Positions 127 through 9,894 of a stretch of 12,731 nt of DNA are shown here, piece after piece. The DNA is from an uncultured Eisenbergiella sp. (GTDB lineage: Bacteria > Bacillota > Clostridia > Lachnospirales > Lachnospiraceae): assembly GCA_948960675.1 (NCBI GenBank), contig CARDPF010000065.1, positions 1 to 12,731 of the forward strand. The letters are read 5' to 3'. A model generated the notes under the pieces. It was not told where the DNA came from and searched no databases. It saw only the letters and a program-made list of their open reading frames with translations. Both the position numbers and the translations under genes were made by a program. Numbering within the stretch: the first letter of the stretch is position 1; every line of letters begins with the position of its first letter.

Positions 127-1416
127 TTAGCTTATTTTGAGTTTAAACTTCTGCAGTTCCCTCTCGGAATCCACCTTGGCAATCTGCGCCCCCAATTTCT
201 GGAGTTTTAAATGGAAATCCTCATAGCCCCGCTCAATATAGCGGATATCATCCACGCTGGAAAACCCTTCCGCCGCAAGCGCCGCAATCACAAGGGCCGC
301 TCCGGCACGCAAATCCGGGGCGTTGATGCTGGCCCCCGTATAGCGGGAGATGCCGTCGATAATGGCCGTGTTGCCTTCCACCCGGATGCTCGCACCCATA
401 CGAACCAGCGCTTCCACATAGCGGAAACGGTTCTCAAAAACACTCTCTGTCACGATACTGGTACCCTGCGCCAATCCAAGTGTCACCACAATCTGCGGCT
501 GCATGTCCGTGGGAAAACCGGGATAAAAAAACGTCTTGACATGCGTATGGTGCAGCGGCCCCGCCACCACACGCACGATATCGTCCGCCTCCTGTACCCT
601 GCAGCCGATTTCCGTCAACTTCGCGCTGACGGACTCCAAATGCTTGGGAATCACGTTTTTGACCGTAATATCCCCGCCGGTGGCAGCCGCCGCAAACATA
701 TAAGTTCCCGCTTCGATTTGATCCGGAATGATGGTATACTCCGTCCTGTGCAGCTTTTCCACACCCCTGATACGCACCACATCCGTACCGGCGCCTTTGA
801 TGTTGGCGCCCATACTGTTCAGGAAATTGGCCAGGTCAACCACATGGGGTTCTTTGGCCGCATTCTCAATGATGGTCCTGCCATCCGCCAATACCGCAGC
901 CATCATAATATTGATGGTTGCCCCCACACTGGCCACATCCAAATAGATATGGCTCCCGGCAAGATGCTGTGTTCTGGCCGTAATCATCCCGTGGGCGATG
1001 GTAACTTCCGCGCCCAGCGCCTTAAATCCCTTGATATGCTGGTCGATGGCGCGGCAGCCAATATCACAGCCTCCCGGAAGCACGACGGTCGCTTCCCTGT
1101 ATTTGCCCAAAAGGGCGCCCAAAAAATAATAAGATCCCCTGATCTTTTTGACGGAGTCCCCTTCCACCACAAGGCTGTTGACAAATGCCCCATGGGTTCT
1201 CACCGTATGCCTGTCTAACCGTTCCACCTGCACACCGATGCCCTGCAGGGCCTCCAAAAGGATGTTGGTATCCCTCACATCCGGCATATTGTCTATAAGA
1301 ACCGACTCGTCCGTCATCAAAGAAGCAGCCAGAATGGGGAGCGCCGCATTTTTGGCCCCTCCGATCTCCACTTCCCCAACTAACGGATTCCCGCCGTTGA
1401 TTGCGTATTGTTCCAT
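127..1416 (-). CDS. murA: UDP-N-acetylglucosamine 1-carboxyvinyltransferase
   Basis: This cytoplasmic enzyme transfers enolpyruvate from PEP to UDP-GlcNAc, the first committed step of peptidoglycan synthesis. The N-terminus MEQYAINGG and the following GGAKNAALPI (with the Lys-Asn pair that contacts substrate) are typical. The active-site loop reads LPGGCDIG, so the PEP-attacking residue is Cys (about residue 117), the fosfomycin-sensitive form rather than the Asp variant. Length, about 429 residues, is normal for the family. An in-frame ATG exists at 1422, but an AGAGG Shine-Dalgarno lies only 1 nt before it and 7 nt before the ATG at 1416, so the latter is preferred. It is transcribed from its own promoter at 1583-1611 with a long leader. 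Clostridia often have two MurA paralogs; which one this is cannot be told. Confidence 0.96.
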   Translation of the reverse strand: MEQYAINGGNPLVGEVEIGGAKNAALPILAASLMTDESVLIDNMPDVRDTNILLEALQGIGVQVERLDRHTVRTHGAFVNSLVVEGDSVKKIRGSYYFLGALLGKYREATVVLPGGCDIGCRAIDQHIKGFKALGAEVTIAHGMITARTQHLAGSHIYLDVASVGATINIMMAAVLADGRTIIENAAKEPHVVDLANFLNSMGANIKGAGTDVVRIRGVEKLHRTEYTIIPDQIEAGTYMFAAAATGGDITVKNVIPKHLESVSAKLTEIGCRVQEADDIVRVVAGPLHHTHVKTFFYPGFPTDMQPQIVVTLGLAQGTSIVTESVFENRFRYVEALVRMGASIRVEGNTAIIDGISRYTGASINAPDLRAGAALVIAALAAEGFSSVDDIRYIERGYEDFHLKLQKLGAQIAKVDSERELQKFKLKIS

Positions 1417-1536
1417 ATTCATACCTCTGCATATTATAGGAACTACCTGAAAGCTGCGCTATCTATTATCTTCTATTTTTAAAGGTTTATTCCCGTATCC
1501 GAAAAAGAATTTACACACACTTTACCGTCATAAAGC

Positions 1537-1721: not shown

Positions 1722-3299
1722 TTAATGGAGATAGGAAAGGGGATTGACCGCGCTGCCGTTAATCCGGATTTCAAAATGCAGATGCGGGCCCGTACTGCGC
1801 CCCGTATTTCCGCTCAGGGCAATTTTCTGTCCCTGCCGCACCTTCTGGCCCGCAGAGACCAGCACTTTACTCAAATGCCCGTAACGGGTTTCCCTGCCGT
1901 CCTCATGCCGGATATAAACCACGTACCCATACCCGCTGCCCCAGCCGGCCTTCGTGACCGTGCCGCCGCAGGACGCAACCACCGACGTACCCACCGGGGT
2001 TGCCCAGTCCACGCCCTTGTGGTTGGTGGAAGCCCCCTTTGTGGGTGCGCGCCGTCCGCCATAGCCGGAGGAAAGCCGTCCGCCGGAAATCGGTTTGATA
2101 TAAGTAGGCGGGATTTTGGTTCCCCTTTCCACAATCTTTGGAACCGCCTCCGCCACCACTTCCTCCTTTACAATCTCCTGGGAGACTTCCGCATCGTTGC
2201 GGTAGGTGATCATGGCCGCCGCCTTCCTAAAACCCGCAGACGGCTGCTGGCGGACGACAGAATCGGTGGTATACCAGCCGTCATTGTCCACGTAGACCGT
2301 ATCGGCATCATAGCTGGCCTCGGTATAAATCCGCTCCATATGCACCACGGAAAGCAACGGCTCCGGCACGGTAATGATCAGTTCATCCCCGGCACGGATC
2401 ATGGAATCCTCACTTTCCAATGTGGGATTAATGGCAACCAAATCCGCAATCGACAGCCCTTTTACCTCCGCAATTTCGGAAAGCGTATCGCCGGACTGCA
2501 CCTCGTAAATTTGTTCCTTCTCCTGATCTGCGGTCACTTCCGACACCGCTTCTGCAAGCGGCGTAATCTCACTGTCCATCAAATAGGCGTCCACCACTTC
2601 CACTGTATCCCCAAAAGAAATGTCCACCATCCCGTAATCCAAATCCGCAAAACCGCTCTTTTCCAGATCCGGTTCTACTTCCTCAAACAGTTCCCCAAAA
2701 AACGAATCCACTCCGGCGCCTTCCCCGACAGCATGCTCCCTCCTTACTTCCCCGTCCCTTTTGGTAATGGACGTGGTAAGCACATTGAGTTCCCTGTCCG
2801 GATCGACTACCAGACTCACCTGATACTCCCGGTGCGAATCATACTTGTCAATTGCTTTCTGCAGAAGGGATAATACGTCCTTACTGCTGCCTAAATTCAC
2901 CATATAGTCATTGATTTTTACCGTATAGGCATGACGGAGCGTCTCGATTGTGCTATCTTTAAGCACCGCTTTGATATTTGACAAAAGCTGCTTTTTTCCG
3001 TCCACCTGCCCGAACACCATCTCCTCCCCCTTAACGGAAATGTCCACGGGAATATAAACCATATCGTCACTGGCCGCCGCAATTTCCCTGCGGGCCCGCA
3101 TGACCAATTCATCCACAGAGGCCAAATCCGCGCAGGAACCCACTTCGGTACCGTTTACCGTCACGGTAAAATAGTTGTCACCGGTATGGGTAAATTTCTG
3201 AAACGACGGGGTAAAAAAGAGGGCGCAAAAACAAATCACGCTGGTCGATAGCAGATAGGCAGCCTTCGCCGCCCGCATTATATTTATCTTTTTTCTCAT
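1722..3299 (-). CDS. Membrane-anchored LysM-G5-M23 family metallopeptidase
   Basis: Probable cell-wall endopeptidase acting outside the membrane. An N-terminal signal/anchor segment (residues about 11-32) has no clear signal-peptidase site. A 230-residue region without recognised domain follows, then a LysM peptidoglycan-binding domain (264-311, YEVQSGDTLSEIAE), a G5-like domain (315-395, ending ERGTKIPP) and a C-terminal M23 lysostaphin-type domain (400-525). The zinc and catalytic residues are present: H427 and D431 in NHKGVDWA, H475 in YGHLS, and H506/H508 in GPHLHFE, so it should be active. LysM-G5-M23 proteins of about 450-550 residues are common in Clostridia. Its ATG overlaps the flavin reductase stop by four bases (ATGA) and has no good Shine-Dalgarno, suggesting translational coupling. 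A terminator follows the stop. Its substrate, and whether it acts in growth or sporulation, are not shown. Confidence 0.93.
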   Translation of the reverse strand: MRKKINIMRAAKAAYLLSTSVICFCALFFTPSFQKFTHTGDNYFTVTVNGTEVGSCADLASVDELVMRARREIAAASDDMVYIPVDISVKGEEMVFGQVDGKKQLLSNIKAVLKDSTIETLRHAYTVKINDYMVNLGSSKDVLSLLQKAIDKYDSHREYQVSLVVDPDRELNVLTTSITKRDGEVRREHAVGEGAGVDSFFGELFEEVEPDLEKSGFADLDYGMVDISFGDTVEVVDAYLMDSEITPLAEAVSEVTADQEKEQIYEVQSGDTLSEIAEVKGLSIADLVAINPTLESEDSMIRAGDELIITVPEPLLSVVHMERIYTEASYDADTVYVDNDGWYTTDSVVRQQPSAGFRKAAAMITYRNDAEVSQEIVKEEVVAEAVPKIVERGTKIPPTYIKPISGGRLSSGYGGRRAPTKGASTNHKGVDWATPVGTSVVASCGGTVTKAGWGSGYGYVVYIRHEDGRETRYGHLSKVLVSAGQKVRQGQKIALSGNTGRSTGPHLHFEIRINGSAVNPLSYLH

Positions 3300-3883
3300 T
3301 TTTTCGTTTTCATATGATTTTTCGTTTTCGCTACACTGTATCCAAAAGTTCCGATCGCCTTTCCAAGGTCAAAATACGTACCGTGTGCATAGACAATGGG
3401 ATCCGCCCATTCCAGATGAAAACGGTTTTTGCTGTCCAGATACGCTTCATCCACACTCACCGACACCACCCGCGCCACAAACATGGTATGACTGCCCAGT
3501 GCAAGCGACCGTTCCACCCGGCATTCCAGACAGACCGGGCTTTCCCCGATCAGGGGCGCTTTCACCTCATTTGCCGCAACAGCCGTCAAATGCATACATG
3601 CAAACTTGTCCACGTCCCGTCCGCTCTTTACCCCGCAAAAATCCGTGGCAGACGCCAGTTTTTTTGTGGTAAGGTTCACCACAAATTCCCCCGTCTCCTC
3701 CAGAACTGCATAGGAATACCGCTCCGGACGCACGGAAACGGATATCATGGGCGGATCGCTGCACACCGTGCCCACCCAGGCCGCCGTAAAAACATTGGGA
3801 CGCCCCTGCCTGTCCGCTACGGATACCAATACCGCCGGAACCGGATACAGCATATTGCCGGGACGCCAGTTCACCCGGCCCAT
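3296..3883 (-). CDS. Flavin reductase family protein (flavoredoxin-like, FMN-binding split barrel)
   Basis: The 195-residue protein matches the flavin reductase-like/flavoredoxin family of small cytoplasmic FMN-binding electron carriers. Visible family segments are WRPGNMLYPVPAVLVS at the N-terminus, NVFTAAWVGTVCSDPP (30-45) followed by SVRPERYSY, EFVVNL (66-71), SGRDVDKF (87-94), and LGSHTMFVARV (129-139). Cys41 sits in the conserved CSDPP turn. The physiological partner is unknown. The ATG at 3883 shares one base with the stop of the upstream gene (TGATG), with GGGG about 7 nt upstream; a TTG one codon earlier is less likely. The stop overlaps the start of the M23 gene by four bases. No functional link between a flavin reductase and a cell-wall hydrolase is established, so this may be only co-transcription. 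Confidence 0.92.
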   Translation of the reverse strand: MGRVNWRPGNMLYPVPAVLVSVADRQGRPNVFTAAWVGTVCSDPPMISVSVRPERYSYAVLEETGEFVVNLTTKKLASATDFCGVKSGRDVDKFACMHLTAVAANEVKAPLIGESPVCLECRVERSLALGSHTMFVARVVSVSVDEAYLDSKNRFHLEWADPIVYAHGTYFDLGKAIGTFGYSVAKTKNHMKTKK

Positions 3884-4734
3884 CAAAACAACCCCAAAAG
3901 CCGCGCAGCCATCAGCCCAATATTCACCACTGCCGCCGCCAGCGTAACCATTACCAAAGGACGCAGGCCCCTGTTTTGATATTGCAAAATCTCATACCGC
4001 TCCGTCAATTCCGCATTCTGCGCCTTCATGGCCTCCATCTGTTTTCCGACTTCTTCCACCACCACAGCCTGTACATTCCGGTAAACTTTGACGTTTTCTC
4101 TATGGGTATAATCATCCGACTGTTTGAGCAGTTCCTTTATGGCCTCCATGTGTGCAAGAACCGCCGCTTCAATTTTCTCCACCGTTTCGGCGGATTCCTG
4201 GTTTTTTCTGTAAGAATCGTTCACCTGCGCCACACATTCCTGCACGCAGCTGCGCAAACCGGTCTGGCACTCCTGCGACAGTCTTTGGACGGCATCCTCC
4301 TGTGTCGCCGCAAGTGTTTCCATCCGTATCAGGCCATCCTGCACAATCCGCTTCACGCTCATGGCGCTCTCCTCGGATAACCGGCTGATTCCGGAAGCGG
4401 ACTCCTCCGCCAGCTGCCCGATACGGCCTACCCCTTCCTGAACCGCAAGCGCCAGATTGGATTCCCCCGCTTCGGCGGCCCGGGTGATATTGCTTGTCCC
4501 TGTCTCAATAATCCTGCGCAGGCCTCCCGCACTCTCCGCCGTCACCCGCTGTATTCCGTCCAGACTCTGCTCCGCCAGCTTCTGCATACCCACGGCGCTT
4601 TTGTCCGTATAACGCTGAATCACATCCAACGTCTCGGCGTTACGCATGATCACCTGTCTCATTTCATACAAATATCCGTCATTATCCGTCTGGGTATTCG
4701 TTCCCCTGCGTTTCCTTATTTCGTGCTCGTCCAT
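3883..4734 (-). CDS. Tail-anchored hendecad coiled-coil protein, function unknown
   Basis: I do not recognise a named family. The 283-residue protein has a short polar N-terminus, a very regular helical region of 14 consecutive 11-residue repeats (residues 27-180), a more heptad-like coiled coil (about 181-256) and one C-terminal transmembrane segment (LVMVTLAAAVVNIGLMAARLLG) with almost no tail. There is no signal peptide, so a long cytoplasmic rod anchored by its C-terminus is the natural reading. There are no MCP signalling-tip or HAMP motifs, although the Gln/Glu/Ser-rich helix superficially resembles chemoreceptors. It is first in an operon with the flavin reductase (TGATG junction) and M23 peptidase. 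Start choice: a TTG at 4761 abuts GGAGGAGG with no spacing; the ATG at 4734 has AGGGGCAGGG just upstream and is preferred, though the stronger GGAGGAGG lies about 27 nt away. Confidence 0.88.
   Translation of the reverse strand: MDEHEIRKRRGTNTQTDNDGYLYEMRQVIMRNAETLDVIQRYTDKSAVGMQKLAEQSLDGIQRVTAESAGGLRRIIETGTSNITRAAEAGESNLALAVQEGVGRIGQLAEESASGISRLSEESAMSVKRIVQDGLIRMETLAATQEDAVQRLSQECQTGLRSCVQECVAQVNDSYRKNQESAETVEKIEAAVLAHMEAIKELLKQSDDYTHRENVKVYRNVQAVVVEEVGKQMEAMKAQNAELTERYEILQYQNRGLRPLVMVTLAAAVVNIGLMAARLLGLF
4195..4656 (-). repeat. 14 tandem 11-residue (33-nt) coding repeats
   Basis: The encoded protein divides without gaps into 14 units of 11 residues. Position 2 of each unit is V I M I L I L I I V M V L V, position 5 is mostly L/I/V/A, and position 9 is small (S, G, C or T) in 12 of 14. 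Hydrophobic spacing of 3-4-4 is the hendecad pattern. Typical units are GIQRVTAESAG, RIGQLAEESAS and GISRLSEESAM. The units have diverged at DNA level, so this is an old, selected periodicity rather than a recent tandem expansion. Confidence 0.85.
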
Positions 4735-4801: not shown

Positions 4802-4830
4802 ATTTTAACATTAAAATTTTACGCTTACAA
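4802..4830 (-). promoter_or_regulatory. Promoter of the coiled-coil/flavin reductase/M23 operon
   Basis: Minus-strand TTGTAA (4830-4825) and TAAAAT (4807-4802), 17-bp spacer, in an AT-rich block. Transcription would start near 4795, about 60 nt before the first start codon. It is the only good promoter seen upstream of the three genes. Confidence 0.65.
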
Positions 4831-4959
4831 TACCAAAACATGCTTTCGACGCCGGAACCGGTAATAGTCGTTACTACCCTCAGTGGACAATGTCACTTAG
4901 TTAAGCCACGGGCTTTGGGAGATATGCCAACGGGCGGGGAAGGCGGAGCCTTTTGCAGG

Positions 4960-5147
4960 CCGGGCAAGCCGGTAAAGCCGCGAGGGCGAGAGCCCGGATT
5001 GCGCATACCCGCGGCGGTTGCGGGGCGCTGGGTGCCAGTGGCGCCCGTTTGGCGCCGACCGGAGCGGAGCGTAGACCGCGCCAGCGCGTAGCAACCGGCT
5101 TTCATGCGTGGTGGCGCGCCGACAATGGCGCATGCCAGTTTACTATG
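4960..5147. repeat. GC-rich structured repeat, copy A (divergent)
   Basis: This copy shares two long blocks with copies B and C: about 4960-5010 (GGGCAAGCCGGTAAAGCC and onward to GCGCATACC) and about 5077-5147 (GCGCCAGCGCG through GCCAGTTTACTATG). The centre differs, with about 45 extra bases forming an additional hairpin. AAGCCGGT (4966-4973) and ACCGGCTT (5094-5101) are perfect complements that can close the element; inside lies a GGGC-GAGA-GCCC hairpin (4984-4995) with a GNRA tetraloop. The 50 bp to its left (from about 4911) are also GC-rich and hairpin-prone but lack clear similarity to B and C. Open frames through this sequence are not credible genes. Confidence 0.85.
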
Positions 5148-5380
5148 CCAAAACCGCCTTGGATATTCCAGACGAAGCATTCCCTCCTTTGCCGGTTATA
5201 TGGTGTTCCAAATTACATTTTGTCTGTTTTGCACTAATTTTAAAATGCTTTTTTCATATTTTTATGCGAATTAACCGTGTTTTAACAACACGTTCATACT
5301 TTATTCATAATCGCTTGTTATACTCTATTTATCCTTTAAAGGGATAAACAAACTTGATTGCAGATAATTTTTTCATAATA
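5148..5380. other. AT-rich spacer between repeat copies, no gene
   Basis: The composition drops sharply to AT-rich. Visible are an inverted repeat CGTGTT/AACACG with a 5-nt spacer (about 5275-5291), a plus-strand TATACT that could be a -10 box near 5321 but without a good -35, and a weak hairpin TTTATCC/GGATAAA (about 5326-5346). On the minus strand AAAGGAGGGAATG near 5180 resembles a start site, but the frame runs straight into repeat copy A. No gene is supported. Confidence 0.5.
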
Positions 5381-5413: not shown

Positions 5414-5613
5414 TTTACTATGAAAGCCCCGACCGGCAGCCGGGTGTATGGGCAAGCTTGCTTGCACAGACACCCGGATATCGGGCGGGCAAGCCGGTAT
5501 AAGCAAGGAGGGCGGCAGCCCGGATTGCGCATACCGGCGGCAGCTGTGGAGCGCGCCAGCGCGGAGCAGCTGGCTTTCATGCGTAGTGGCGTGCCAGCAA
5601 TGGCGCATGCCAG
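5414..5613. repeat. GC-rich structured repeat, copy B (full length, 200 bp)
   Basis: The unit starts with TTTACTATGAAAGCCCC, and the same 17 bases recur exactly 200 bp later at the start of copy C. It contains ATGAAAGCC (5420-5428) complementary to GGCTTTCAT (5572-5580), the palindrome GCAAGCTTGC, a CCCG/CGGG hairpin, AAGCCGGT (5491-5498), a GGGC-GGCA-GCCC hairpin (5510-5521) and CGCG-CCAG-CGCG. It ends with a second TGGCG...GCCAG segment. The palindromes suggest a foldback DNA or RNA element, not a coding sequence. Confidence 0.9.
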
Positions 5614-5810
5614 TTTACTATGAAAGCCCCGGACGGCGGCTGTGTGAATGGGCAAGCTTGCTTGCACAGACACCCGGATATCGGGCGGGCAAGCCGGTAA
5701 AGCCGCGAGGGCGGCAGCCCGGATTGCGCATACCGGCGGCAGCTGTGGAGCGCGCCAGCGCGTAGCAACCGGCTTTCATGCGTAGTGGCGTGCCAGTTTA
5801 CTATGAAAAC
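5614..5810. repeat. GC-rich structured repeat, copy C (tandem to B, with a 16-bp deletion)
   Basis: It directly follows copy B in the same orientation and is nearly identical over most of its length, including the HindIII-like palindrome GCAAGCTTGC and all stems. It is shorter because B has two GCCAG words 16 bp apart near its end while C retains one, as expected from a slippage deletion; one further base is missing near 5700. AAGCCGGT (5691-5698) pairs perfectly with ACCGGCTT (5768-5775). It ends in TTTACTATGAAAA just before the terminator. Confidence 0.9.
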
Positions 5811-5859: not shown

Positions 5860-6306
5860 TCATTTTGGGTTGCCGCAAAAAGCGCCGGTACTTCCCTCCC
5901 CGCCCATCATGCGGGTCATCTCCTCAATCCGTTCCACCGGAAAGGGCGGCGCCGTCAACGGTTTCATGGCGATGGACATCAGCTTCATCGGATTGTCATC
6001 CGCCGCCACGCGGTTGGAGGCAAACTTACCGCACACCCTGCAGCGGTGGATAACCGCCCACTCCCCATTTTTTTTCACCCATACGGCCACCGGATCCATA
6101 TACCCTCCGCAGTCCGACCCCCGGTCTCCAGGCTCATTGTCCACATGCAGACTGCTCAGGCAATTCGGGCAGTGATTGCGGTGGTCGCTTCCCGCCCCCT
6201 GCCAGACTACCGTTCTCCCGCATACCTTACAGGTAAACGTGTCCGTGCAGGCATGATTTTTGTAATATCCTTTCTCAAAAGATCTTTTTTTATTTTCTCT
6301 ATTCAC
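5860..6306 (-). CDS. RNHCP domain-containing zinc-binding protein
   Basis: The 148-residue protein contains HRNHCPNCLSSLHVD (42-56), the hallmark of the RNHCP family (named after that motif; function unknown). Cysteines C26/C29, C46/C49, C66 and C89/C92 give CxxC pairs that can form zinc ribbons, and the segments PGDRGSDCGGYM and HRCRVCGKFASNRVAADDNP complete the family pattern. It is cytoplasmic with no membrane segment. The start is GTG, supported by AGGAGG 9 nt upstream; there is no better ATG. It follows the CD3324-type gene on the same strand by about 130 bp, so the two are probably co-transcribed, and it ends in a clear terminator. Binding of nucleic acid is a guess from the zinc ribbons. 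Confidence 0.9.
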   Translation of the reverse strand: MNRENKKRSFEKGYYKNHACTDTFTCKVCGRTVVWQGAGSDHRNHCPNCLSSLHVDNEPGDRGSDCGGYMDPVAVWVKKNGEWAVIHRCRVCGKFASNRVAADDNPMKLMSIAMKPLTAPPFPVERIEEMTRMMGGEGSTGAFCGNPK

Positions 6307-6435: not shown

Positions 6436-6702
6436 TTAACGCCTTAAACTCCGTACGATTCTTTGTATGCTCTTTACCGATAAACAATAACGTGCCGCCA
6501 GTTCCTGCGCCGCTGTCCCGGAAAGGTATTCCGCATATATCTTTTCGTTTCTGGCCTTTAACCCGGCACGGGTATCCGTCCCCGAGCCCCAGATGCGTTT
6601 TTCCCCTTTCCTCGGAACATAGAGCAGTTCCCCGTCCACGTACTCTTGTACCAGCTGCAGTACATCCTCCGGCAGAACATCTTCTGCCCTAACATAGCCC
6701 AT
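6436..6702 (-). CDS. CD3324 family protein (Mor-like helix-turn-helix)
   Basis: An 88-residue protein of the small family typified by Clostridioides difficile CD3324. The N-terminal half carries the conserved segments VLPEDVLQLVQEYVDGELLYVPRK; the C-terminal part (about 50-88) is a helix-turn-helix with AAQELAARYCLSVKSIQRIVR, like the C-terminus of Mor/C phage middle-gene activators. It is therefore probably a DNA-binding regulator with unknown targets. AGGAGGG lies 6 nt before the ATG. It is the first gene after the promoter at 6836-6864 and precedes the RNHCP gene. Confidence 0.85.
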   Translation of the reverse strand: MGYVRAEDVLPEDVLQLVQEYVDGELLYVPRKGEKRIWGSGTDTRAGLKARNEKIYAEYLSGTAAQELAARYCLSVKSIQRIVRSLRR

Positions 6703-7887: not shown

Positions 7888-8940
7888 TTATGCAGGCTGC
7901 CAGCCAGCCATACGAATGGCATAATCCATCGCGTTGCGCAGGCTTTGTTCGCTGGCAAGCCCTGTCCCCGCCTGATCGAACGCGGTTCCGTGATCCACCG
8001 AGGTGCGGATGATCGGCAGGCCAAGGGTGATATTTACTCCCGCCACGGCATCCCATTTCTTTTCCTGCCGGTTATACACAAATCCCACCGTCTTCAACGG
8101 AATATGACCCTGGTCATGATACATCGCCACCACAATATCGTACCAGCCGCCCCTCGCTTTGGAAAATACGGTATCCGCAGGAACCGGCCCGTCCACCAAA
8201 ATACCTTCCGCTCCTGCGGCCCTAATGGCAGGTGCAATTTCCTCTATCTCCTCCCTGCCAAACATCCCGTTTTCACCGCTGTGGGGATTTAAACCTGCCA
8301 CACCGATTTTGGGCCGCGCGATTCCAAGCTGCCTGCAGGCCTGATCGGCCATACGGATTACCTCAAGCACCCTGTCTTTTTTCACCCTTTCGCACGCCTC
8401 CCGCAGGGAAACATGGGTAGAAACATGCACCACCCGCAGATTTTCGCAGGCCAGCATCATCGCATATTTTGAGATACCGGTATAGGCCGCATAAATCTCG
8501 GTATGTCCGGAAAAACGATGTCCCGCCAGATTCATGGCTTCCTTATTTAACGCGTTGGTGACGGTGGCATCAATCTTTTTTTCCATGGCCAGTTCAATGA
8601 CCTTTTTCACGTATTGAAAAGCTGCGTTTCCCGCCATGGCGGATACCTGCCCCCGTCTCAGCTGCCCGGTCTGTATAATATCCATATCATAAACATCCAT
8701 GGTTCCGTATACAAAAAGCGCTTCTTCTACCTTGCCGACTTTTCGGATACGCAGCTTTTGGGAAAGTCCGGTAATTTTGAGCGCTTCCTCCATTACCCGG
8801 GCATCCCCTATGACCAGCGGCCGGCATCTTTCATAAACCGCCGGATCCGCCATTGCCTTCGCCGTAATTTCAGGGCCGATACCCGCCGGATCGCCCATGG
8901 TAACTCCTATGATCTTCACGTCTGACGCTTTTCCCCTCAT
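7888..8940 (-). CDS. PdxA-family dehydrogenase, PdxA2-like (4-phospho-D-threonate/erythronate type)
   Basis: A metal- and NAD-dependent 4-phosphooxy-acid dehydrogenase. GVTMGDPAGIGPEI (12-25), SGHTE, STHVSLR, LNPHSGE (H220), YHDQGHIPLK (H275) and IRTSVDHGTAFDQAG are all family hallmarks, and the metal-binding histidines are in place. The YHDQGHIPLK and GTAFD forms are those I associate with PdxA2, which oxidises 4-phosphorylated D-threonate/D-erythronate, rather than vitamin B6 PdxA (HDQGLPxLK, GTALD). Length, 350, is normal. Its ATG overlaps the stop of the DapA-family gene by four bases (ATGA), so both are made together. PdxA2 genes usually neighbour a DUF1537 kinase; none is seen here. A B6 role remains possible but less likely. 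Confidence 0.9.
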   Translation of the reverse strand: MRGKASDVKIIGVTMGDPAGIGPEITAKAMADPAVYERCRPLVIGDARVMEEALKITGLSQKLRIRKVGKVEEALFVYGTMDVYDMDIIQTGQLRRGQVSAMAGNAAFQYVKKVIELAMEKKIDATVTNALNKEAMNLAGHRFSGHTEIYAAYTGISKYAMMLACENLRVVHVSTHVSLREACERVKKDRVLEVIRMADQACRQLGIARPKIGVAGLNPHSGENGMFGREEIEEIAPAIRAAGAEGILVDGPVPADTVFSKARGGWYDIVVAMYHDQGHIPLKTVGFVYNRQEKKWDAVAGVNITLGLPIIRTSVDHGTAFDQAGTGLASEQSLRNAMDYAIRMAGWQPA

Positions 8941-9836
8941 ATATTTTTATAGTCTGCATAGTAGGTATCAATCGTTTTACGGATGCCTTCCACCGCTTCC
9001 TGCGGCAAAATGTCAAACGGTTTCCGGCAGGGCCCGACCGGCTGTCCGATTAAATTGGCGGCATATTTCAATACCGTATTGGGATTGCCGTACTTGACGC
9101 AATCACACATTTTGCCGATGGCATTCTGCGCTTCCCGGGCCCTTTCCATATCGCCCTTCAAATAGTTTTGGTAAATATCCACCAGAACCGTCGGCAGGAT
9201 ATTGGCGATCGCCGTGATGCCACCCCTTCCGCCGGCTATAAGCGTCTCCAAAATCAAAGGATCATGGCCGCACAAAACCGCAAAATCCAACCCTTGCGTT
9301 TCCCGGATATATTGCCGGATGTTACCTATATCACCGCTGGAATCCTTCACACCTACCATGTTTGGAAAGTCTTTTGCCAGCCTGGAGACGGTTTTTGGCG
9401 CCAGCGACACTCCGGTTCTGGACGGTATATTGTACATCACCACCGGCAGGTTCACCGCTTCAGCTACCGCCGCATAGTGCCGGTATAATTCTTCCTGACT
9501 GATCGCAGCAAAGTAGGGCGTGATCACGGAAAGAACATCCACCCCGATTTCCCCGGCCTTTCTGGACAAATCAACGGTCTCCTGCGTACCGATGCATCCG
9601 GTTCCGGCATATACGGGGACACGCCCTTTTACCTCCTCCACAAAAATCTCCATGATCCGGATTTTTTCCTGCGCAGACAGAACAAAAAACTCCCCGTTTG
9701 TCCCCATACAGAAAACCCCATCCACCCCTGCGCCGATCTGACGGTTGATCTGACGGCGCAGTTCCCCTTCATTGATGCTGCCGTCCTCATGCATGGCTGT
9801 CTGCATCGCCGCAATGATTCCCTTGATTTTAGTCAT
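8937..9836 (-). CDS. Dihydrodipicolinate synthase/N-acetylneuraminate lyase family protein
   Basis: A class I (Schiff-base) aldolase of the DapA superfamily, 299 residues. The Schiff-base lysine is in GVKDSSGD (about K164), the catalytic tyrosine and a carboxylate-binding arginine are in YNIPSRTG (Y135, R140), and Y108 in ITPYF matches the DapA relay tyrosine. The usual GTTGE loop reads GTNGE, changing the second threonine of the DapA proton relay, and the partner gene is catabolic, so lysine biosynthesis is unlikely. It probably condenses or cleaves a pyruvate-derived 2-keto acid; the substrate is not identifiable. The ATG at 9836 has GGAGGGGG at good spacing; a TTG two codons earlier is too close to it. 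It is first in the operon behind the promoter at 9895-9923. Confidence 0.9.
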   Translation of the reverse strand: MTKIKGIIAAMQTAMHEDGSINEGELRRQINRQIGAGVDGVFCMGTNGEFFVLSAQEKIRIMEIFVEEVKGRVPVYAGTGCIGTQETVDLSRKAGEIGVDVLSVITPYFAAISQEELYRHYAAVAEAVNLPVVMYNIPSRTGVSLAPKTVSRLAKDFPNMVGVKDSSGDIGNIRQYIRETQGLDFAVLCGHDPLILETLIAGGRGGITAIANILPTVLVDIYQNYLKGDMERAREAQNAIGKMCDCVKYGNPNTVLKYAANLIGQPVGPCRKPFDILPQEAVEGIRKTIDTYYADYKNI

Positions 9837-9894
9837 GTGCAATCCCCCTCCACATTCTTAACCCAGGAACGGATAACCCGTCCCGGTAGCTTTT

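Follow-up and report, generated by a model that had tools for sequence, protein, structure and literature searches.

What does a membrane-anchored protein built of 11-residue repeats do in an operon that also encodes a cell-wall hydrolase? The question arises from a gene in a contig of an uncultured Eisenbergiella sp., of which a stretch of 12,731 nucleotides, hereafter called the window, was analysed. A preliminary description, made from the letters alone, had proposed that the protein is a rod of 14 gap-free hendecads held by a single C-terminal membrane helix. The repeat proved to be real and strong, and the protein that carries it belongs to a family that is linked to an operon and uncharacterised. 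Its gene lies on the minus strand, with an ATG start at 4734 and the stop codon at 3885-3883, and the nearest genome match is a full-length gene with 85% identity in the metagenome-assembled genome (MAG) Lachnospiraceae bacterium UBA3332 (L001). The following features were assigned to it.

4802 to 4830, minus strand: candidate promoter (TTGTAA, 17 nt with TG, TAAAAT), a consensus match alone.
3883 to 4734, minus strand: tail-anchored coiled-coil protein of 283 amino acids (list of open reading frames; 319 relatives at E<=1e-3, of which the best 120 were listed).
4657 to 4734, minus strand: N-terminal segment, residues 1-26, containing YLYEMRQ and conserved among close relatives.
4195 to 4656, minus strand: hendecad rod, residues 27-180, 14 units (Fourier and shuffle tests; lag-11 autocorrelation with a z of 8.3, protein P0001).
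4105 to 4194, minus strand: heptad-like segment, residues 181-210 (local period of 3.52 over the windows 155-209 and 166-220).
4066 to 4104, minus strand: signature HRENVKVYRNVQA, residues 211-223 (invariant columns in a 37-row and a 72-row alignment).
3961 to 4065, minus strand: juxtamembrane helical segment, residues 224-258, with length differences of 7 or 14 residues between group-1 relatives.
3892 to 3960, minus strand: C-terminal membrane helix, residues 259-281 (hydropathy 2.07).

Residues 27-180 divide into 14 units of 11 residues without a gap and contain no proline. Position 2 of the unit is I, L, M or V in all 14 units and position 9 is S, G, C or T in 12 of them, the latter as had been described, and neither count was reached in any column by any of 20,000 shuffles of the rod stretch. 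The Fourier power of I, L, M, V and F peaks at 3.67 and 2.75 residues (11/3 and 11/4) and is near nil at 3.5; the peak at 11/3 had been predicted, and its value was attained in one of 5,000 shuffles. This uninterrupted period of 11 residues, in a stretch that is modelled as helix and has neither proline nor predicted strands, agrees with the hendecad coiled coils as a structural kind. The hydrophobic 3-4-4 spacing assigned earlier held for position 2, but the third core position is small (S, G or C) rather than hydrophobic, and position 5 is I, L, M, V or F in only 8 of the 14 units. According to one study, hendecads aim one core residue at the bundle axis, which calls for either a small side chain or a higher oligomer (PMC9858780); the small residue at position 9 would allow a low oligomer. 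Past residue 180 the pattern fades, position 2 becoming A, L and K, and a local Fourier scan returns to 3.66-3.69, not 3.5, in windows from 177 to 253.

The top 19-residue hydropathy window, at 259-277, scores 2.07 against 0.68 for the best window starting before residue 225, so the protein has one C-terminal membrane helix, as had been claimed, with almost nothing after it. The helical rod was likewise borne out by AlphaFold, which modelled the window protein as helices 3-115 and 120-280 (mean pLDDT 81.3) and the 226-residue relative P0011 as a single helix, 2-223 (mean pLDDT 85.6). The pTM values were low (0.33 and 0.32, respectively), and these single-chain runs are uninformative on oligomers; the CCfrag paper warns that AlphaFold treats hendecads poorly (PMC11676326). 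A Foldseek search of the model against the PDB gave no match, such a search being uninformative for long single helices.

No Pfam or NCBIfam model matched the window protein above its cut-off, which upholds for this protein the earlier remark that no named family with its layout was known. At E<=1e-3 a search gave 319 relatives; of the best 120, which were listed, 18 have a precomputed Phasin_2 assignment. A profile of 37 chosen diverse members matched 3,660 of 7,998 scored candidates (best 120 listed), a number to be read with the false matches that long coiled coils can draw. The juxtamembrane signature, whose pattern across the family is HxExVKVYRNVQA, was present in 142 of 142 retrieved proteins. 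H211, E213, V215, V217-A223 and E228 are invariant in the 37 members as well as in the 72-row alignment; Y18 and L22 are almost invariant in both, and R26 is invariant in the latter. Many members outside the window protein's own subgroup start with MDNFMDKLAQKFNAQEMIKANS-like segments. The profile found matches in 81 of 299 genomes from the family of relative L002 at E<=1e-3 (54 at E<=1e-10). In the class of L002, 6 of 291 genomes matched at E<=1e-10, but five of these had already been counted with the family. Judged by this profile, which was built from members of the protein family itself, these proteins seem to cluster in a single bacterial family. Eight named relative loci come from MAGs titled Lachnospiraceae (four), Eisenbergiella (two) and Eubacteriales (two).

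Protein length ranges from 139 to 489 amino acids. Among 183 signature-bearing sequences, a set skewed towards relatives of the window protein, 133 had a significantly repetitive middle part (z>=5) that was 55 residues or longer, for which the best lag was 11 in 117, 22 in 8, 14 in 4, 7 in 2, 28 in 1 and 18 in 1. At the same threshold, units of 11 residues were seen at the genome loci L077, L078 and L079 and units of 7 or 14 residues at L076, L080, L091, L092 and L097, and many short members have no clear repeat. The count of 14 units thus stands for the window protein but is not a property of the family, whose members differ greatly in their number of hendecads and in certain lineages have 7/14-residue units or no clear repeat.

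The refutation test set for the rod model was a break of the 11-residue phase in homologs. In 73 of 82 relatives the spacer from YTDKS to HKENVKVYRN is 92, 103, 114, 125, 136, 147, 158, 169 or 180 residues long, and after redundancy removal it was in phase in 47 of 49 (at 90%), 30 of 31 (80%), 18 of 19 (70%) and 10 of 10 (60%). The phase is therefore broken in nine raw sequences, but in only two once near-duplicates are removed at 90%. Six of the nine exceptions (P0037, P0038, P0041, P0042, P0043 and P0047; the others being P0049, P0062 and P0085) are variants of P0035, a protein with 475 member sequences, carrying in-frame deletions of 8, 7, 3, 7, 7 and 27 residues. Two of the 7-residue deletions fall within the heptad-like segment, and every variant occurs on one or two contigs; as one of them lies on a 97.8-kb contig, some out-of-phase variants may be real. 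Two subgroups with other repeat sequences hold a phase of their own (37 of 37 with nine lengths, and 6 of 6 with three), a four-member subgroup is in phase in three, and seven ungrouped proteins are mixed. Close relatives differ in length by 11 (P0053/P0055), 22 (P0003/P0004) or 33 residues (P0068/P0082), and near-identical proteins by 11, 22, 33 or 44. For all length-differing pairs the difference is a multiple of 11 in 214 of 317 at 70-85% identity and in only 27 of 60 at 85% or more, the latter because of the nine phase-breaking relatives, one of which is involved in each non-multiple.

The segment between the signature and the membrane helix served as a control for mere slippage, with few distinct lengths (three in step). 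Among 75 group-1 proteins it measures 24 (26 proteins), 31 (2), 38 (44) or 28 residues (3), so that 72 of 75 differ by 7 or 14, and in 17 other proteins 24, 29, 38 or 54 residues. Steps of 11 in the rod against 7 or 14 next to the membrane are not expected from slippage of a single repeat, and the two step sizes would fit one coiled-coil helix. To judge from the sequences compared, conservation lies in the juxtamembrane signature, in both ends and, for the most part, in the order of the genes, the rod appearing as a variable-length module between fixed ends.

That gene order in the window runs from the rod gene to a flavin reductase, a LysM-G5-M23 endopeptidase and MurA, and the cell-wall hydrolase noted earlier in the operon is this endopeptidase.

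3296 to 3886, minus strand: flavin reductase-like protein (PF01613), listed start TTG at 3886.
1722 to 3299, minus strand: bitopic LysM-G5-M23 endopeptidase of 525 amino acids with a basic cytoplasmic tail and one membrane helix (open reading frame and Pfam).
127 to 1422, minus strand: MurA-type enzyme (EPSP synthase family), the usual next gene (Pfam and gene order in relatives).

The listed TTG start of the reductase overlaps the rod gene by 4 nt, and its next in-frame ATG (3883-3881) has one base in common with the stop codon of the rod gene. The end of the reductase gene in turn overlaps the start of the M23 gene, again by 4 nt. All eight named relatives have rod, reductase, M23 and MurA genes in series, with MetK after MurA in the seven that reach far enough. 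A further sample comprised 40 places from 39 genomes, 34 of which hold an open reading frame with the signature. Within 3.5 kb downstream on the same strand, M23 was found at 28 of these 34 loci and the reductase at 25; anywhere in the stretch, an alarmone-synthetase-like gene was found at 27 and MurA at 28. At L096 the M23 gene lies about 3.7 kb downstream of the rod gene, at L098 and L099 the contig ends about 1.5 kb or less from the reductase, and at L079, L095 and L097 there was room but no M23 within the fetched stretch; their genomes carry it on another contig (G155), about 9 kb further on (G204) or on the opposite strand (G095). The signature was absent by pattern at six of the 40 places (L090, L105, L107, L109, L110 and L111), four of which still have M23.

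Of 54 genomes with a rod profile match (E<=1e-10) among the 299 sampled, 49 also have M23 (at least 200 bits; odds ratio 52), and 39 of 88 M23 genomes are without a rod match at E<=1e-10; the association is one-sided. Examination of 40 M23 loci at which the rod match was missing, weak or not yet fetched gave a tail-anchored candidate upstream, with the signature intact or diverged, in nine, and none in 31, three of which stop shortly upstream. Diverged signatures such as HNESVKCYRNIQ, HKECVKCYRNVQ and HKDNLITYKNLRQ occur in tail-anchored proteins upstream of M23 at L165, L170, L175, L178, L180 and L181. The M23 enzymes have 517-556 amino acids, mostly 524-530 (36 listed, with automatically chosen starts), a basic tail and one membrane helix; their size is thus nearly constant, against the 139-489 amino acids of the rod proteins. 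A Y-K/R motif in the cytoplasmic tail was found at 22 of 41 loci with the rod and 11 of 27 without, which is no clear difference. By eye and uncounted, M23 beside the rod tends to end its membrane helix in FF-P and the others do not, an impression confounded by lineage. The gap between reductase and M23 is about 1-3 kb in L077, L078, L083, L085, L088, L089, L093, L096 and L100, where other genes may sit.

Upstream of the operon the window contains two tandem copies of the Clostridiales-1 RNA (RF01699; 103.4 and 62.8 bits) at 5421-5579 and 5621-5778 on the plus strand, and a third, diverged Clostridiales-1-like stretch near 4958-5160. They are followed on the minus strand by genes for an RNHCP-domain protein (5860-6306) and a Mor-like protein (6436-6702), a place where many relatives have the alarmone-synthetase-like gene, and by a pair of PdxA-like and DHDPS-like genes (7888-9842, minus) whose ends overlap by 4 nt.

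How might the rod and the endopeptidase work together? We give roughly even chances to a reading in which the window protein forms a parallel coiled-coil rod that is tethered to the membrane and lies in the cytoplasm, and whose oligomer concentrates or positions the operon's bitopic M23 endopeptidase. The tail helix would anchor the rod in the membrane, the foot with its invariant VKVYRNVQA helix would adjoin it, and the 154 residues of the hendecad rod, a straight element of about 23 nm if each residue adds 1.5 A, would extend the N-terminal end into the cytoplasm. By oligomerising into a patch or bundle it might then gather or place the enzyme, and so affect wall growth, through a putative contact in which the foot or tail helix of the rod would touch M23 at its membrane helix or its short, basic cytoplasmic tail. 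Since a hendecad makes three helical turns, gain or loss of a unit shifts the length by about 1.65 nm and leaves the ends unrotated against each other. On this basis the rod could even be a length-tunable ruler, with which lineages set the distance between the foot, engaging the wall hydrolase, and the head by whole hendecads or heptad pairs with the ends kept in register, an extension that we consider quite unlikely.

Two other explanations concern the rod itself. Units of 11 residues are typical of lipid-binding helices of the apolipoprotein, phasin or perilipin style, and the repeat might be such an amphipathic helix lying on the membrane. Besides the Phasin_2 assignments, one of the best 120 relatives listed is assigned to Apolipoprotein, Phasin_2 matches 20 (best 2.1e-9) and Apolipoprotein 3 of the 37 alignment members at E<=0.01, and apolipoproteins A-IV and E gave weak PDB matches. 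These were outranked, however, by designed helical bundles and fusions, a viral-spike-derived construct and a chemoreceptor, which makes composition a likely cause. A lipid-binding discriminant (HeliQuest formula, scale and cut-offs, 0.68 being the lower cut-off) exceeded 0.68 in 24 of 137 rod windows, but its mean was 0.13 and no window exceeded 1.34; the mean charge of the rod is -0.63 per 18 residues, and PhaC_N was found in none of eight genomes with relatives against one of 14 control genomes. A lipid-binding repeat thus seems very unlikely to us. The chain might also fold back as an intramolecular hairpin that turns near residues 116-119, where the AlphaFold helix is broken; the rod would then have half the length and might be a monomer. 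Yet residues 114-122 have a pLDDT under 50 and coincide with gaps in many aligned relatives, P0011 is modelled as one helix, and single-hendecad differences (P0053/P0055, P0010/P0024) would shift the arms of a hairpin, which we regard as highly improbable.

The partner and the length steps invite other readings too. As M23 often occurs without the rod, and as the alarmone-synthetase-like gene, the reductase and MurA are nearly as constant beside it as M23 or equally so, the rod could be a general organiser at the cytoplasmic membrane that pairs with some other protein (for example the alarmone-synthetase-like one or the flavin reductase) or only with itself, M23 being merely co-inherited. Such an organiser appears to us somewhat doubtful: at seven loci without a reductase match (L076, L086, L091, L102, L103, L104 and L108) M23 starts within about 110 bp of the rod gene, and in the window the rod gene has no adjoining alarmone-synthetase-like gene. 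The 11-residue steps could also stem purely from unequal recombination between repeats of 33 bp, neither length nor phase being under selection; P0003 does contain tandem 22-residue copies (lag 22 strongest), and units were gained or lost between near-identical proteins. The window gene, however, has only one internal repeat pair at a multiple of 33 bp (23 nt, 78% identical, 165 bp apart) with its pattern intact, and the juxtamembrane steps are of 7 or 14, though in only three lengths, so that we think recombination alone unlikely.

Our best reading is still that of a length-adjustable cytoplasmic scaffold that would serve M23, functioning like bactofilin-LmdC without being one. If this is true, Lachnospiraceae-type bacteria, which are abundant in guts, serve a wall hydrolase with an alpha-helical scaffold that has gone unrecognised, in the role that bactofilins have in other bacteria, and the natural 11-residue length series offers ready variants for probing the control of envelope machinery by rod length and helical phase. 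No account of the rod family was found among the listed titles and opening lines of abstracts on bacterial hendecads, tail-anchored coiled coils, M23 and bactofilin, and Lachnospiraceae, although the map of a 2023 hendecad survey may already include it. That survey, in J Struct Biol, reportedly describes hendecad amplification.

By its repeat the rod protein is one of the hendecad coiled coils, with a putative function. It resembles FilP/Scy, characterised bacterial examples, which are also long 11-residue coiled coils with a small core residue and lengths that vary widely within the family (PMC9858780). FilP/Scy are described there as actinobacterial, with an N-terminal DivIVA-like motif RGYDxxEVD (PMC9858780); reading of the 283-residue window sequence gave no such motif, and the window protein differs in its C-terminal membrane anchor and its own signature. 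This anchor also distinguishes it from Phasin_2 (PF09361), which was rejected for the window protein (18 bits against a cut-off of 24.9; no PhaC_N in the eight genomes); the filing of some relatives there is judged a compositional match. An Apolipoprotein assignment was set aside, its PDB matches being weak and composition likely, as was ZorA (NCBIfam antiphage_ZorA_4; 17.8 against 500 bits). No bactofilin was among the Pfam matches of the window protein at E<=0.1, and its AlphaFold model is all-helical. In the BacA-LmdC system a cytoplasmic scaffold gene lies beside that of a bitopic M23 enzyme, which is recruited via its cytoplasmic tail (PMC10945521). The window likewise has an adjacent bitopic M23 with a short cytoplasmic tail, as have 28 of 34 signature loci. 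Whereas bactofilin is a beta-helical polymer, the window protein would be an alpha-helical, tail-anchored rod whose binding to M23 is putative, and with this difference bactofilin-LmdC appears the best functional analogue of the rod-M23 pair.
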